Source: Bacteroidota bacterium (GTDB taxonomy: Bacteria; Bacteroidota; Ignavibacteria; Palsa-1295). From it: 64,000 nt of DNA. The translations under genes were made by a program, and so were the position numbers. The first letter of the stretch is position 1; each line of letters starts with the position of its first letter. The notes beneath the pieces are model-generated. The model was not told the origin of the DNA, made no database searches, and was given only the letters and a program-made list of their open reading frames with translations. Positions 4,193 through 62,457 of this stretch are shown piece by piece. The stretch lies in the NCBI GenBank assembly GCA_021324735.1, contig JAJPIO010000014.1:62001-126000 (forward strand), read 5' to 3'.

Positions 4193-5950
4193 TCAATGGA
4201 TTATTTGAAGTTTCATCGCATCGCCCGAAGAAGGGACCAATAGCTGATATACTCCCGCGGGAAGATCATCCAATTCGATAAGAGAATGGTTCGAATCCAC
4301 GTTCGCTTTGCGAACGATGCGGCCGAGCATGTCAACAATTTCGAATGCAACCGACGAGCTACCCGAGTAGGACGCATGAATCACATTCGAAGCGGGATTG
4401 GGCCAGATATTTAACCGAGGATTGTTATTAGAATGAACCAGCATCGGGGGCGGTGGGGCATCGGCATCATACGCAAGCACGTCGATGTCGATCGTGTCGA
4501 TATCCCGTGGCCAGCGCCATTTTGTAAGGTAGCTGTGATGGACAGGCTCACTGAAGAACATGGTGATTGGAAAGTCGAACGGATCGATCGATTCCGGTAG
4601 CACCATCGTGGGAAACTTCCATCCCGAGATGGAATCTCCGAAGTGAGAGTCATCAAAAAACGGGGCATAAAATAGATGTGAAAGACTGTCGTTATTTCCC
4701 ATGTAAAATCGGAAGCTATTCGGGAATGTAGAGGTAGAGAAGATGATACCTGCCGGATGGACTCCATGCATGAGCAGCGGCGGATTCGACGGATAATTCG
4801 GGCAATACACATTAATCCAACCGCCAAGAGTGATGATAAAGGTTGTGTCGGTACAACGCTGATCGGGATCGGCCGGCTCGATCTTGCCCATCAGCGTTGC
4901 ACCACGATAATAGCTGGAAAGGTCCTTCCGATTATCGTTATCCAGCAGCCGTATAACGAAGTTCGCACTATCGTAGGGAGCGATCGTCGTAGGGCGTTGC
5001 AGTAGCACAAAACTATTGGTATCCGGACCGCTCCACTCGAGAGTATCGAGGCGAACGGCCACGCCGGAAGTATTCCGAAAGGTAAACGTTCGGTCGGCAT
5101 GACCTAAGAACGGCGCAAGCCACCGGCCGGTATCGTAGGAGCGGAGAGTAAACGTATTATGATACCAGGTGTACGTCTCCATTGGAATCGTATCGATGAC
5201 CCTAAGGGAGCAGCTTGCATAGGTGCAAAACAAGGTATCGTAAATGTGGTACTTAGGTGCGCCGTAGAACTCGAGCGTATCATACCACCATTTCATTGCG
5301 GGTTGTGCCGCATCTTTTGGAATCCGAAAGCGGTCAGTGTATTCACCGGATATTCGGAATTGCATATCAGTGACGAGCCCATCGTAACGGTAATTCACTG
5401 ATTGAAAACCAATCACACTCCAGTCGCCAATTTTAGACGCATAAGAATTCCAATTCTTCCAATGCCCAACTTCGACTCCTGCGTTTACCTCATACCGATT
5501 GACTGTTATTGGTTGCCAGGGAACCGGGCACGGTCCGGCGCCGATCATCGGACAAAAATAGACAGAATCGACGTTGGTGCGGGCGTCAGTTATCTCCCAT
5601 CGGCTTCTCACTTTTTCGGTATCAACTGTCGAATCGCTGTTGGTATAGGTAGCCGCAAGCCGAAGATCCGGCGTATGAGAGTGTGGGGGAATTCGAAACC
5701 ATCGGCAGTTGATAGAATCGAAATAAGAGTATGTTGTGAGGGAATCATCAAATTGCCACTTGTTATCGGGCAAATAATTAATTCTAACCACGAGCGTGTC
5801 TGCGGTCAGGTTGGTGAAGTCGATGAAAAAGGGCACCGCTCCTCCCGCAGTGTTTGGGATCTCCTCTTGAGTAATCGCTACGACCGGCTGAGCGGAGAGC
5901 CGAGCAGTGGCCAACAATAAGGCCGTTAATAACAACAAGCATCTATGCAT
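4193..5950 (-). CDS. T9SS-secreted surface protein
   Basis: An extracellular protein of about 585 residues. ATG at 5950 gives a clean signal peptide (MHRCLLLLTALLLATARLSAQ); an ORF extension to 5983 adds eleven residues that only lengthen it. The body is rich in aromatic and beta-type sequence and contains several cysteines, with no enzyme motif seen. The last about 70 residues (starting NIWPNPASNVIHASYS, then VAFEIVDMLGRIVRKANV, LPAGVYQLLV) are a type A T9SS C-terminal sorting domain, so the protein should cross the outer membrane and have the tail removed. A middle stretch (VRLDTLEWSGPDTNSFVLL) resembles Ig-like choice-of-anchor modules. Ligand unknown. Confidence 0.82.
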   Translation of the reverse strand: MHRCLLLLTALLLATARLSAQPVVAITQEEIPNTAGGAVPFFIDFTNLTADTLVVRINYLPDNKWQFDDSLTTYSYFDSINCRWFRIPPHSHTPDLRLAATYTNSDSTVDTEKVRSRWEITDARTNVDSVYFCPMIGAGPCPVPWQPITVNRYEVNAGVEVGHWKNWNSYASKIGDWSVIGFQSVNYRYDGLVTDMQFRISGEYTDRFRIPKDAAQPAMKWWYDTLEFYGAPKYHIYDTLFCTYASCSLRVIDTIPMETYTWYHNTFTLRSYDTGRWLAPFLGHADRTFTFRNTSGVAVRLDTLEWSGPDTNSFVLLQRPTTIAPYDSANFVIRLLDNDNRKDLSSYYRGATLMGKIEPADPDQRCTDTTFIITLGGWINVYCPNYPSNPPLLMHGVHPAGIIFSTSTFPNSFRFYMGNNDSLSHLFYAPFFDDSHFGDSISGWKFPTMVLPESIDPFDFPITMFFSEPVHHSYLTKWRWPRDIDTIDIDVLAYDADAPPPPMLVHSNNNPRLNIWPNPASNVIHASYSGSSSVAFEIVDMLGRIVRKANVDSNHSLIELDDLPAGVYQLLVPSSGDAMKLQIIH

Positions 5951-6641: not shown

Positions 6642-7697
6642 GTGAGGGACGAGCACCGGGTCAGAGAACTAATATTGCGTTATGGCTGGAATAGCACCTG
6701 CTACCAGCTTCTAAATCCAGGATTCGAATACTGGTTTAGCGGCGAATTTGACGCCGTTGTAGGATTCGTACAGTATGCACGAACACGGATCGTGGCTGGC
6801 GCGCCGGTTTGTCCCTTCGATCAACTTTCCAATGTTGAGCTCGAGTTCGAGCGCGATGCATTGCGCTCGGGATTACAGGTATGCTATTTTGCAAGCGAAG
6901 CACGGCTCGAAAGTATCATTGCTAAGCAGCCGGGATATTCCGTGATCCGCTTAGGAGCGCAGCCGGTATGGCATCCTCAGTATCTTACACGGAACATGCA
7001 CGAGAAGTCCTCTTTGCGCGGGCAGTTAAATCGTGCCTGGAATAAGGGCGTTGTGGTAGAAGAATGGCCGGCATCGCGCGCAGCCAATAATGCAACGCTT
7101 CATGCGGTATTACGGCGGTGGCTTTCAACACGAGGTTTACCCAGCCTTCACTTTCTGGTAGAGCCCGAGACTCTTTCGAATCAGCAGGATAGGCGAATCT
7201 TTGTCGCTACACAAGGGGATCAGGTCATCGGATTTCTAAATCTATCACCGGTCCCGGAACGTCAAGGCTGGCTCGCTGAGCAATTCGTACGCGATACTGA
7301 TGCGCCGAACGGCACCGTCGAATTAATGCTCGAAGCGGCAGCGAACGCGATCGCTCTCGATGGATACGAATACTTTACTCTTGGTCTCTCACCACTGACC
7401 CAACATGCAGGGCCTGCGACGCTACCAGAGCGCGTACCGCCATTCATTCGGTTTTTACTTCGCTGGGCTCGCGCTCATGGTAAACGCTTCTATAACTTTG
7501 AAGGACTGGAGTTCTTCAAGACGAAGTTTGAGCCAGAGCATTGGGAAAATATCTATGCGATCTCTAATGAGCCGAAATTCTCTTTGCGATCGCTCTATGC
7601 GATCGCATGTGCATTTACCACGGGAAAGCCGCTGCAAACCGTAATGGCAGGATTTGGTAAAGCGCTCCAAACTGAAGTGGTACGAATGTTCAAATAA
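6642..7697 (+). CDS. DUF2156 protein, related to the MprF catalytic domain
   Basis: A 351-residue protein with a GTG start. It has the double-GNAT layout of DUF2156, the domain that in MprF transfers lysine from tRNA to phosphatidylglycerol. Recognisable parts are the early RYGWNSTCYQLLNPGFEYWF, the mid-protein RIFVATQGDQVIGFLNLSPV, and the C-terminal YNFEGLEFFKTKFEPEHWENIY, which matches the conserved end of the family. There is no N-terminal membrane region, so it is a soluble stand-alone form. The substrate could be a lipid, peptide or other amine; aminoacyl transfer is an inference from the family. Confidence 0.75.
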   Translation: MRDEHRVRELILRYGWNSTCYQLLNPGFEYWFSGEFDAVVGFVQYARTRIVAGAPVCPFDQLSNVELEFERDALRSGLQVCYFASEARLESIIAKQPGYSVIRLGAQPVWHPQYLTRNMHEKSSLRGQLNRAWNKGVVVEEWPASRAANNATLHAVLRRWLSTRGLPSLHFLVEPETLSNQQDRRIFVATQGDQVIGFLNLSPVPERQGWLAEQFVRDTDAPNGTVELMLEAAANAIALDGYEYFTLGLSPLTQHAGPATLPERVPPFIRFLLRWARAHGKRFYNFEGLEFFKTKFEPEHWENIYAISNEPKFSLRSLYAIACAFTTGKPLQTVMAGFGKALQTEVVRMFK

Positions 7698-28237: not shown

Positions 28238-28909
28238 CTATATTCCAGCGGCAGCAATAGTCTTATGACGCATCAGCTTTGCTTCTGCAATAAAGATGAC
28301 GTCTTCGGCTATGTTGGTCGCATGGTCCGCCAGTCGTTCGACGTGACGTAATACTGCCATCAGATGTGCCGCCGGTTCGATCAGAACGGGATCGGACTTC
28401 ATGGCATCGATCAGGTTATAGAATATTTGTCGGTTCAACTGATCGACCTCGTCTTCTTCAGCGAATACTTTTCGAGCTTCGTCCGCATCGGTATGAATAA
28501 AGGCGTTGAGTACCTGGGTGAGCATGCGGCGAGAGGTAGCGATCATCTCCATGCCTCCCACCTTACTAATGAGATCCGTATAGCTCTCTAACGCTTCGAC
28601 ACGTTCTGCAATATTGACCGCGATATCGCCGATGCGCTCAAAATCATTGTTCATCCGCATGGCAGCGAGAAGAAGCCGTAGATCCACGGCGACGGGCTGA
28701 GTAAGGGCAAAAATGCGCTGGCACTGGCCGTCGATCGTCAGATCGAGTTCGTTTACACGCTGTTCGCGTTCTACAACGAATTTTGAAAGCTCGAGATTGG
28801 ATTCTTTGAGCGCGCGGATCGCTGTTTCAACCTGCTCATCGACCAGCGATCCCATCCGAATAAGCTGCGAACGCAGGGTGTCGAGTTCGTCTTCGAAGTG
28901 TCTGTGCAT
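28238..28909 (-). CDS. phoU: Phosphate signalling regulator PhoU
   Basis: ATG at 28909 starts MHRHFEDELDTLRSQLIRMG, as in other PhoU proteins; the reading frame extends further upstream but that part is inside or next to pstB. About 223 residues of two similar three-helix bundles, with the metal-binding motifs MNNDFERIGDIAVNIAERVE and RHVERLADHATNIAEDVIF. PhoU links the Pst transporter to the PhoR kinase and dampens the response when phosphate is ample. It follows pstB by 46 bases on the same strand. Confidence 0.93.
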   Translation of the reverse strand: MHRHFEDELDTLRSQLIRMGSLVDEQVETAIRALKESNLELSKFVVEREQRVNELDLTIDGQCQRIFALTQPVAVDLRLLLAAMRMNNDFERIGDIAVNIAERVEALESYTDLISKVGGMEMIATSRRMLTQVLNAFIHTDADEARKVFAEEDEVDQLNRQIFYNLIDAMKSDPVLIEPAAHLMAVLRHVERLADHATNIAEDVIFIAEAKLMRHKTIAAAGI

Positions 28910-28955: not shown

Positions 28956-29801
28956 TTATCCGAATCTTCCGGTGATATAGTCTTCGGTCTGTTTCTTTTT
29001 GGGGTTCGTAAAAATATCTCGTGTTTCGCCGGCTTCAATAAGTTCTCCCATATAGAAGAACGCCGTCACATCGCTAACACGTGCAGCCTGCTGCATATTA
29101 TGCGTAACGATAATGATCGTATAATTTTTTTTCAGCTCGAAGATCAATTCTTCGATCTTGGCCGTCGAGATTGGGTCGAGGGCACTTGCTGGCTCATCCA
29201 TGAGCAATATTTCCGGTTCAACGGCCAACGCGCGAGCAATACAAAGGCGTTGCTGTTGTCCGCCCGAGAGGCCCATTGCACTATGGTGTAAACGGTCTTT
29301 TACCTCCTCCCATAATGCTGCTTGTCTCAAGCTGCGTTCGACGATATCGTTGAGTGTCGATTTTTGTTTTGTACCGAGCACTTTCGGTCCGTATGCAACA
29401 TTTTCCCAAATCGATTTTGGGAAAGGGTTGGATTTTTGAAACACCATGCCGACCCGTTTGCGTAATTCGACCACATCCAGACCTTTCTGGTAAATATCGA
29501 TACCATCGATCGTGACTTCGCCCGTGATCCGAACGCCAGTGATGAGATCGTTCATCCGATTCAGCGTTCGGAGATACGTCGATTTTCCACATCCGGAAGG
29601 GCCGATGAACGCTGTGACCTCTCGTTCTCGAATATCGAGGGAAATGCTACGTAGGGCTTGCTTGGAACCGTAATAAAGGTTAAGATCTCGAGTAAGAACT
29701 TTCGTGGGTGCGCGTTCTACTACCTCCCCGTGCGACGTTATTACTTCGGGTGCACGCAAAACAGTCGGCGCCTCACGCGATGGAATTTCCGCTATTTTCA
29801 A
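28956..29801 (-). CDS. pstB: Phosphate ABC transporter ATP-binding protein
   Basis: A 281-residue ABC ATPase. Walker [13 protein letters not shown] signature [16 protein letters not shown], Walker [14 protein letters not shown] and the H-loop [13 protein letters not shown] are present, and [22 protein letters not shown] is typical of PstB. It energises high-affinity phosphate import; the pstSCA genes are not in this window. The N-terminus is about 30 residues longer than usual ([15 protein letters not shown]), so a start at an internal codon is possible. It leads the leftward pstB-phoU operon from the shared phosphate control region. Confidence 0.94.
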
Positions 29802-29877
29802 GGGTTAGCTATTTAGTGTTCACAATTCACGCTGCTCTTCGAACAGCCAGCGACGGTATTTAGTCGGTCAAGGTTCG

Positions 29878-29959
29878 ATTATATCATTGTTACCAAATTG
29901 TTAAGCAAATTTTCGTCCTGTTACGCGCCAGTTAAGAAAGCGTAAATCCGCTGTATAAT
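29878..29959. promoter_or_regulatory. Divergent phosphate promoters with doubled Pho-box-like motif
   Basis: TATAAT occurs on the plus strand at 29954-29959 (toward phoB) and on the minus strand at 29883-29878 (toward pstB). Between them the motif TGTTAC-N6-GTTAAG occurs twice in the same orientation, at 29888-29905 and 29919-29936, exactly 31 bases apart. Within each copy the TGTTA/GTTA elements are spaced 11 bases, the spacing PhoB needs between half sites. Each copy covers a -35 position. Binding by the adjacent phoB product is inference. Confidence 0.65.
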
Positions 29960-30010: not shown

Positions 30011-30709
30011 ATGAGCAAGACCATTCTCATCGCCGATGACGAGCAGGATATTCGAGACCTGATCTCGTATAATCTATCAAAAGAAGGCTTTACTGTGGAG
30101 TCTGCCGCAAACGGTAAAGAGGTACTTCAAAAGCTTGAACAATCGCCCGCTGATCTTATCATCCTGGACATAATGATGCCAGAAATGGATGGATTCGAAG
30201 CCTGTAAAGCGATTCGGGCTAATCCGAAAACGGCAAACATTCCAATTCTATTCTTGACTGCTCGAGCTGGTGAAGTAGACCAGATCGTCTCGCTCGAGCT
30301 GGGAGCCGATGATTACGTTCAAAAACCGGTGTCTCCACGAGTATTGGTGGCACGTGTTAAGTCGTTGCTTCGGCGGTTCGATCGTTCCGAGCAGAAGCCT
30401 GCAACCGCCGCTGCCGAGCAGATAAATTCTGATGGTGTGAAGGTCGATCGTTCTTCTTATAAAGTGTTCGTGAACGATAAAGAGGTCTTTTTCCCGCGCA
30501 AGGAATTTGAATTGCTCTACTTCCTTGCTTCCCATCCTGGACGTATTTATAAGCGCGAGGCGCTACTTGACGAAGTATGGGGACGTGATACCTTCGTGGT
30601 CGAACGTACCGTTGACGTACATATATTCAAGGTTCGGGAGAAACTGGGTGATTACGGCAAGCGGATTGAAACCGTGAAGGGTGTTGGTTATCGGTACGTG
30701 TTAGAATAA
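30011..30709 (+). CDS. phoB: Phosphate response regulator PhoB-like
   Basis: A 232-residue OmpR/PhoB-family regulator. The receiver domain has the acidic pair in IADDEQDIRD, phospho-acceptor Asp in LIILDIMMPEMDGFEA and the lysine in YVQKPVSP. The C-terminal winged helix (FFPRKEFELLYFLASHPGRIYKREALLDEVWG, then ERTVDVHIFKVREKLG) binds direct repeats. Its place beside phoR and opposite pstB-phoU supports PhoB. There is no SD at the ATG. Confidence 0.9.
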   Translation: MSKTILIADDEQDIRDLISYNLSKEGFTVESAANGKEVLQKLEQSPADLIILDIMMPEMDGFEACKAIRANPKTANIPILFLTARAGEVDQIVSLELGADDYVQKPVSPRVLVARVKSLLRRFDRSEQKPATAAAEQINSDGVKVDRSSYKVFVNDKEVFFPRKEFELLYFLASHPGRIYKREALLDEVWGRDTFVVERTVDVHIFKVREKLGDYGKRIETVKGVGYRYVLE

Positions 30710-30718
30710 GCGTTACCG

Positions 30719-31777
30719 ATGCCATCTTTACGGGTTCGCGCTACTGTTCTTCCTGTTGTTTTTTCGTTCGTCATACTTGCGATCGCTGATGTAAGTATAG
30801 CCTTTCTGCGTCCGGAGCTTTCTGTCCCGGCCCTTTATCTCTCGGTTCTTCTTCTGGTTGTGTTCACGGCCATTAGCTTATGGTATGCAGCCCGCTTGAT
30901 CCGGCCGATTAACGATCTCATGCCAACCGTCGATAGTAAAGGGCATTTGGAATTTCGAAGCACAACGAAAAAAACTACCGCTCCCGAAGAACTGCAAGCG
31001 CTGGCTAAAGTGATCGATCAGATCATCGAGAAGCAGCGATTAGATGATGCTCAGCGCGAGAAACTGGAACGGGTTCGCAGCGAATTCCTCGCCAATGTTT
31101 CGCATGAGCTTCGTACACCGATCTTTGCAGTCCAGGGATTTATTGAAACCTTGTTAGATGGTGCAGTCGACGATCCGAAAGTAAACCGAGATTTTTTAGA
31201 GCGAGCACGAGTCCAGGCCGAGCGGCTTAATAATCTGCTCAATGACCTGATCGACATATCGCGTATCGAATCCGGCGAGATGCGCATGAGCTTTCGCATG
31301 TTCGATATTCAGCCGTTCCTTCGGGAGTTCACGAGTGAAATGCAGCCACAAGCCCGGACGAAAGATATCGAGTTGTATTTTACGGGTAACGTACTGCCTC
31401 ATCATGAGGCGAGCGTATATGCTGATAAAGAACGTATCAAGCAGGTCCTCATTAATCTGGTCGATAACGCAATAAAATATTCTGGAAACGGCGGGGCAAT
31501 AAAGATCGAGCTTCTCAACGGCGAACCAACTCGTAATGAAGTTACTGTACGAGTGATCGATACTGGTATTGGAATCCCAGCCGAACACATACCGCGTCTT
31601 TTCGAGCGGTTTTATCGGGTCGATAAAGGGCGTGCCCGTTCCAGTCCGGGCGGTACCGGGCTTGGTCTTGCGATCGTCAAGCATATTACCGAGGCTCACC
31701 ATGGGAAGATCAGTGTGACAAGCGAGGTCGGGAAGGGAAGTACGTTCCAATTTACTCTTTGTAAGGAGCCGTTTTAG
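30719..31777 (+). CDS. phoR: Phosphate sensor histidine kinase PhoR-like
   Basis: A 352-residue sensor kinase nine bases after phoB. Two N-terminal membrane helices (LPVVFSFVILAIADVSIAFL and LYLSVLLLVVFTAISLWYAA) with almost no periplasmic loop between them, as in PhoR, which senses through the Pst-PhoU complex. The phospho-acceptor is His in NVSHELRTPIFAVQGFIETL. The ATPase has the N box (INLVDNAIKYS), the G1 box (VIDTGIGIPAEHIPRLFERFYRVD) and G2 (GGTGLGLAIVKHI). No PAS domain is evident, which is shorter than E. coli PhoR. Confidence 0.9.
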   Translation: MPSLRVRATVLPVVFSFVILAIADVSIAFLRPELSVPALYLSVLLLVVFTAISLWYAARLIRPINDLMPTVDSKGHLEFRSTTKKTTAPEELQALAKVIDQIIEKQRLDDAQREKLERVRSEFLANVSHELRTPIFAVQGFIETLLDGAVDDPKVNRDFLERARVQAERLNNLLNDLIDISRIESGEMRMSFRMFDIQPFLREFTSEMQPQARTKDIELYFTGNVLPHHEASVYADKERIKQVLINLVDNAIKYSGNGGAIKIELLNGEPTRNEVTVRVIDTGIGIPAEHIPRLFERFYRVDKGRARSSPGGTGLGLAIVKHITEAHHGKISVTSEVGKGSTFQFTLCKEPF

Positions 31778-62319: not shown

Positions 62320-62457
62320 ATTAACGGTTTTGTTTTCGGTGAGTATTTTCGCTGAGCATGACGGTAGGCTCAGCAGAGCAAATTGTGAACTCAAATATAA
62401 CGCTTTTATAACGGAAGTGCTTGCATCGGAACCTGCATACGTATGCGTAATAATGCA

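Follow-up and report, generated by a model that had tools for sequence, protein, structure and literature searches.

Two arrays of 11-bp half-sites between the divergent pstB-phoU and phoBR genes as a probable shared Pho regulon operator in a Bacteroidota bacterium

The 209-bp intergenic stretch between pstB-phoU (- strand) and phoBR (+ strand) in the window (the whole 64-kb stretch of DNA that was analysed) carries two arrays of tandem half-sites, and it very probably acts as a common Pho-regulon operator for both gene pairs, in which array 1 would activate pstB-phoU and array 2 would autoregulate phoBR through phosphorylated PhoB (PhoB~P) bound to half-sites spaced by 11 bp. An earlier note on this DNA had proposed a lineage-specific Pho box made of a doubled 18-base frame. 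From that reading, a Pho-box-type array with an 11-bp period, common to pst and phoB promoters, was retained, while the motif frame and the lineage specificity were given up.

The genes flanking the interval were identified with NCBIfam models. The ATPase gene of the phosphate ABC transporter, pstB (28956..29801, - strand, TTG start as listed), reached 421 bits with TIGR00972 (cut-off 343), and phoU, located 3' of pstB (28238..28909, - strand, start placed at MHRHFEDEL from relatives), reached 194 bits with TIGR02135 (cut-off 130). On the + strand, PhoB models were the top models for the phoB-type response regulator (30011..30709), and PnpS and PhoR those for the phoR-type sensor kinase (30719..31777), so that a cognate PhoB and PhoR pair is present in the genome, although both proteins scored below the curated cut-offs of these models. 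Among solved structures, E. coli PhoB was the nearest to the DNA-binding domain of the window's PhoB, and the nearest named PhoB (L041) was 57% identical to the latter, which suggests a class resembling the Ignavibacteria.

The frame TGTTAC-N6-GTTAAG, described in the earlier note as occurring twice in the same orientation 31 bp apart, is indeed present in two exact copies, TGTTACCAAATTGTTAAG at 29888-29905 (+ strand), which forms the core of array 1, and TGTTACGCGCCAGTTAAG at 29919-29936 (+ strand), which takes in the two leading half-sites of array 2. The 18-mer is not the true unit, which is shorter, namely a half-site RTTA every 11 bp, and the half-site spacing that had been likened to PhoB/PhoP sites was confirmed in the form of tandem direct half-sites with an 11-bp period. 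Array 1 (29867..29905, + strand, antisense to pstB) comprises four half-sites, at 29867 (GTCAAG, a weaker one), 29878 (ATTATA), 29889 (GTTACC) and 29900 (GTTAAG), the best three of which scored 28.8, the top value in 384 kb of genome. Array 2 (29920..29947, + strand, score 18.9) comprises three, at 29920 (GTTACG), 29931 (GTTAAG) and 29942 (GTAAAT); it runs in the direction of phoB and overlaps the probable -35 region of that gene. Three pairs of RTTA at exactly 11 bp were counted in the 209-bp stretch, a number attained by none of 2000 shuffles, and this period is strong evidence for a pattern beyond chance. Triple arrays scoring at least 16 were found only three times in 384 kb (the window plus 16 background stretches), twice at pstB/phoB. 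The third (window 62387-62412, - strand) falls on the 5' end of an ORF of 404 aa whose C-terminal end is of secretion type, and may be a chance occurrence. Two divergent TATAAT boxes had also been pointed out, and both are present: the one on the phoB side (29954-29959, + strand), 17 bp after GTTAAG, is a candidate -10 element of phoB whose hexamer is not conserved in relatives, and the one on the pstB side (29878-29883, - strand) falls on a half-site that takes the form RTTAT or RTTAA in relatives, and is not kept there as TATAAT.

Alignment of the region showed that both arrays are kept at the same place in 7/7 same-genus genomes. What is conserved is a series of RTTA words every 11 bp, with GTTATCTCTGT-GTTACCAAATT-GTTA as the typical form in array 1 and GTTAAGAAATCGTAAAA in array 2; the distance from RTTA at 29878 to GTTAAG at 29931 was 53 bp in five of the seven genomes, and 52 and 54 bp in the other two. 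The two copies of the 18-base frame are not equivalent sites, as the number of half-sites differs (four in array 1, three in array 2), and the best-kept part of array 2 among same-genus relatives lies one half-site downstream of the frame. Arrays upstream of phoB were also found in three other genera of the family, and arrays adjoin phoB in 10/10 family genomes compared. In nine of these ten, a conserved GCAC element follows a phoB half-site (RTTA, GCTA or GATA) at 30 or 31 bp, a fixed distance which ties the phoB array to the promoter. In most same-genus relatives array 2 has a degenerate first half-site (GTTACG in the window), as would be expected if only array 1 worked, as the operator of pstB, and array 2 were a decayed remnant that leaves phoB without autoregulation. 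Such a loss is nevertheless unlikely, given that GTTAAGAAATCGTAAAA is kept in the genus, that the constant distance between first half-site and GCAC extends to two other genera, and that in genome G008 the phoB array is present although phoB has no divergent gene beside it.

The same half-sites were found at other phosphate promoters of the genome. Its pst cluster (contig C14) consists of pstS2-pstC-pstA followed by a porin-like gene, so labelled from its position and its sequence (no Pfam match was obtained), and pstS1, and it holds three sites (G000, L168 5068, 7184 and 8429). The array at 7184 is an extra one in the pstS2-pstC gap of the pst operon, with equivalents in L173 (upstream of pstC), L176 and L178. 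A unit matrix built solely from sequences upstream of phoB (10 genomes, 47 half-sites) was applied to 26 pst-locus regions of the genus and family outside the training set, regions before neighbouring genes being taken in: with three half-sites, 16 of the 26 beat all 155 control upstream regions. Of the ten that did not rise above all controls, nine precede neighbouring or doubtful genes, and one is the pstS promoter of G001 (p 0.058). In a count made independently of the matrix in the 26 pst intergenic regions (4636 bp), RTTA pairs numbered 39 at a distance of 11 bp, 17 at 22 bp and 6 at 33 bp, and no other distance between 4 and 45 bp had more than seven; shuffled versions of these regions contained a mean of 0.92 pairs at 11 bp and a maximum of 7 (500 shuffles). 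A sequence-only profile (24 sites) searched against the whole genome returned eight matches, the top four being phoB/pstB and the three pst sites, all of which belonged to its training set. With the strict three-half-site RTTAH pattern, 24 matches were obtained in seven genomes vs. 10 for the reversed control, including seven at phoB (one per genome) and five at pst, and about half of the 24 are at background level. This pattern took the place of the looser GTTA-N7-GTTA-N7-GTTA, which, with one mismatch allowed, was outnumbered by its reversed control in 7/7 genomes and was kept only for leads.

Several further arrays were recorded in these searches. The fifth-best profile match (G000:C3:93829-93849, L256; E 0.085) lies before two tandem outer-membrane-protein-like genes. 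Among those matches of the strict pattern that are near background, antisense three-half-site arrays precede genes for secreted-type proteins in L127 (1501), L142 (1526) and L209 (G005:C19:99673-99698); these proteins have the common start LIHYW(N/D)FN, the one of L127 with a Por sorting domain, and their genes are possible members of the Pho regulon in three of the seven same-genus genomes. Another array of this near-background group (L210 1490-1531; G000:C3:13237-13262) is placed about 110 bp before a gene of 315 aa with a Metallophos domain, antisense to it. Two adjacent Metallophos-domain genes (L167 2543-5637, G000:C19) follow a 511-aa lipoprotein-like gene and a receptor-like gene, with a GTTA array at 5612, downstream of the pair and before a 197-aa gene. 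Upstream of the phosphatase cluster of contig C19 (L183), no array scoring at least 13 was detected within 14 kb. In two other genera, arrays stand directly before DUF47/PhoU_div-type genes (L181 4864 and L182 4235), the L182 copy of which matched PF01865.

TTAA-cored boxes serve other members of the OmpR family, e.g. PmrA, and the arrays could in principle be bound by another OmpR/PhoB-family regulator with a similar half-site, the phosphate genes being its targets. The genome carries further regulators of PhoB's family which could use such a half-site, head-to-tail binding is common to OmpR-family members according to the literature, and the low model scores of PhoB and PhoR would agree with this explanation. 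Its probability is nonetheless very low, since the arrays stand beside phoB itself throughout the family genomes compared, and the best genome-wide profile matches are all phosphate loci. We regard PhoB as the most plausible ligand of the arrays. In E. coli PhoB, Arg201 and Arg219 are reported to make base-specific hydrogen bonds (PMC3973317), and the corresponding positions are both occupied by Lys in the window's PhoB. Lys was found at both positions in 49/50 rows (L011-L057, L060, L062 and L063), L031 having Arg/Lys; further Bacteroidota rows, perhaps paralogues, showed Arg/Leu (L071) and Arg/Trp (L106). The replacement of Arg by Lys at both positions is consistent with a shift from TGTCA to TGTTA, though no proof of it.

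The exact 18-mer frame has two matches in the whole 3.55-Mb genome, both in the pstB/phoB interval, and the whole-genome search found none at other phosphate genes, an absence which, by the terms of the earlier note, would refute its proposal. Allowing up to one mismatch, 13 matches were obtained in the genome vs. 22 for the reversed control pattern, and the literal 18-mer was dropped as a motif in favour of the half-site because of this lack of enrichment. Matches in the window with up to two mismatches were close to expectation (4 vs. 2.84), hence only the exact pair is worth attention. Moreover, when the 209-bp interval was dinucleotide-shuffled 2000 times, some doubled 6-N6-6 frame was seen in five of the shuffles, and seven doubled frames within 60 bp were counted along the + strand of the whole 64 kb, so that a doubled frame alone is weak evidence. 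This recurrence and the lack of enrichment are what a chance repeat in promoter DNA would produce, but such an origin is scarcely credible for the arrays, whose 11-bp period was never reached in the shuffles and is conserved in relatives.

Outside the family, the half-site was traced at pst genes across the class. Upstream of pstS in 30 loci of other families, 27 RTTA pairs at 11 bp were antisense and none was sense, and GTTAA was the top 5-mer at 11 bp on the antisense strand; 13 of the 30 loci scored at least 16, all of them antisense, and 17 were below 16. Among pstC loci of the whole phylum, 4/29 scored at least 18 (L262, L269, L272 and L276), again all antisense, in a comparison that has little power, as the 600 bp searched probably hold pstS coding sequence in most of the other loci. 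Upstream regions of phoB outside the family mostly showed no clear array in the class (L021-L040); arrays were found in a few Bacteroidota, such as L049, L045 and L062, and in one Chloroflexi (L061), a set too small and too AT-rich to build on. The Pho box is not a lineage-specific one, since its half-site is class-wide at pstS and matches published cyanobacterial and Bacteroidota PhoP boxes. A search of the open literature returned no paper on a Pho box of Ignavibacteria, Kapabacteria or Chlorobi, which may still exist in print.

The consensus of the Bacillus subtilis PhoP box is TT(A/T/C)ACA, and the coding strand carries TTAACA units at 11-bp spacing that resemble it, although the B. subtilis regulator is of another clade. 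On the pst coding strand the window motif reads TTAAC-N6-TTAAC. The cyanobacterial Pho box bound by SphR is made of CTTAACCT repeats with a 3-bp linker (PMC1906773), and it shares with the window motif a TTAAC core before pst operons, an 11-bp period and three or more units (PMC1906773), yet it belongs to a different phylum, and the unit in the window is RTTA(C/A) plus an A-rich spacer. Within the Bacteroidota, the PhoPR-type regulator PhoP of Riemerella anatipestifer has the in-vitro motif TTTAACA, published together with 583 peaks and a comparison of the motif with ArcA (PMC9603813); the feature in common is the TTAACA core. In Bacteroides fragilis, PhoB is reported to bind its own pstC promoter (PMC3547664). 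The Pho box of E. coli, a TGTCA tract with two half-sites per site, is likewise an 11-bp direct repeat, and a single base separates TGTTA from TGTCA (PMC4415409, PMC6194859). The Pho box array, whose most likely ligand is the bacterium's own phosphate regulator, is a known kind of switch, which related bacteria also have before their phosphate-uptake genes.

The orientation of the arrays differed between the two groups of genes. At pst genes of the genus and family, 32 antisense vs. 7 sense RTTA pairs were counted, an antisense pair occurring in 21 of the 26 pst regions and a sense pair in 6, while at phoB 22 pairs were sense and none antisense (10/10 genomes). In the window both arrays are on one strand, so that array 1 has the pst polarity with respect to pstB, and array 2 the phoB polarity. 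Activating Pho boxes of E. coli read in the direction of the gene, as a TGTCA tract; unlike these, the pst arrays described here mostly read against the gene. It is conceivable, though rather doubtful, that a polarity code is at work, in which PhoB arrays against the gene activate pst operons and arrays running with the gene at phoB act otherwise, e.g. in autorepression. A parallel is found in the E. coli phoB promoter, where an activating box is accompanied by an antisense-strand site for autorepression (PMC6194859). If such a code were true, a single run of PhoB~P would turn pstB on and at the same time limit phoB.

Under the shared-operator reading, phosphate limitation would lead PhoR to phosphorylate PhoB, and PhoB~P would bind head to tail on the 11-bp half-sites (RTTA plus A-rich spacer), a mode of binding on 11-bp units known for PhoB (PMC4415409). 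Array 1, placed over the pstB promoter in the polarity prevailing at other pst promoters, would then activate pstB-phoU, and array 2, over the -35 region of phoB, would autoregulate phoBR. Autoregulation of either sign is possible, considering that positive autoregulation of phoBR or phoPR is the stated rule in E. coli and B. subtilis (PMC6232261), vs. the autorepression site of E. coli phoB (PMC6194859). The contrast in polarity between phoB and pst arrays could reveal how a single regulator separates activation from autoregulation. For this little-studied, Bacteroidota-related class, the results provide a Pho-box model, with RTTA every 11 bp and a mostly antisense orientation at pst, which is usable for predicting phosphate regulons from genomes.
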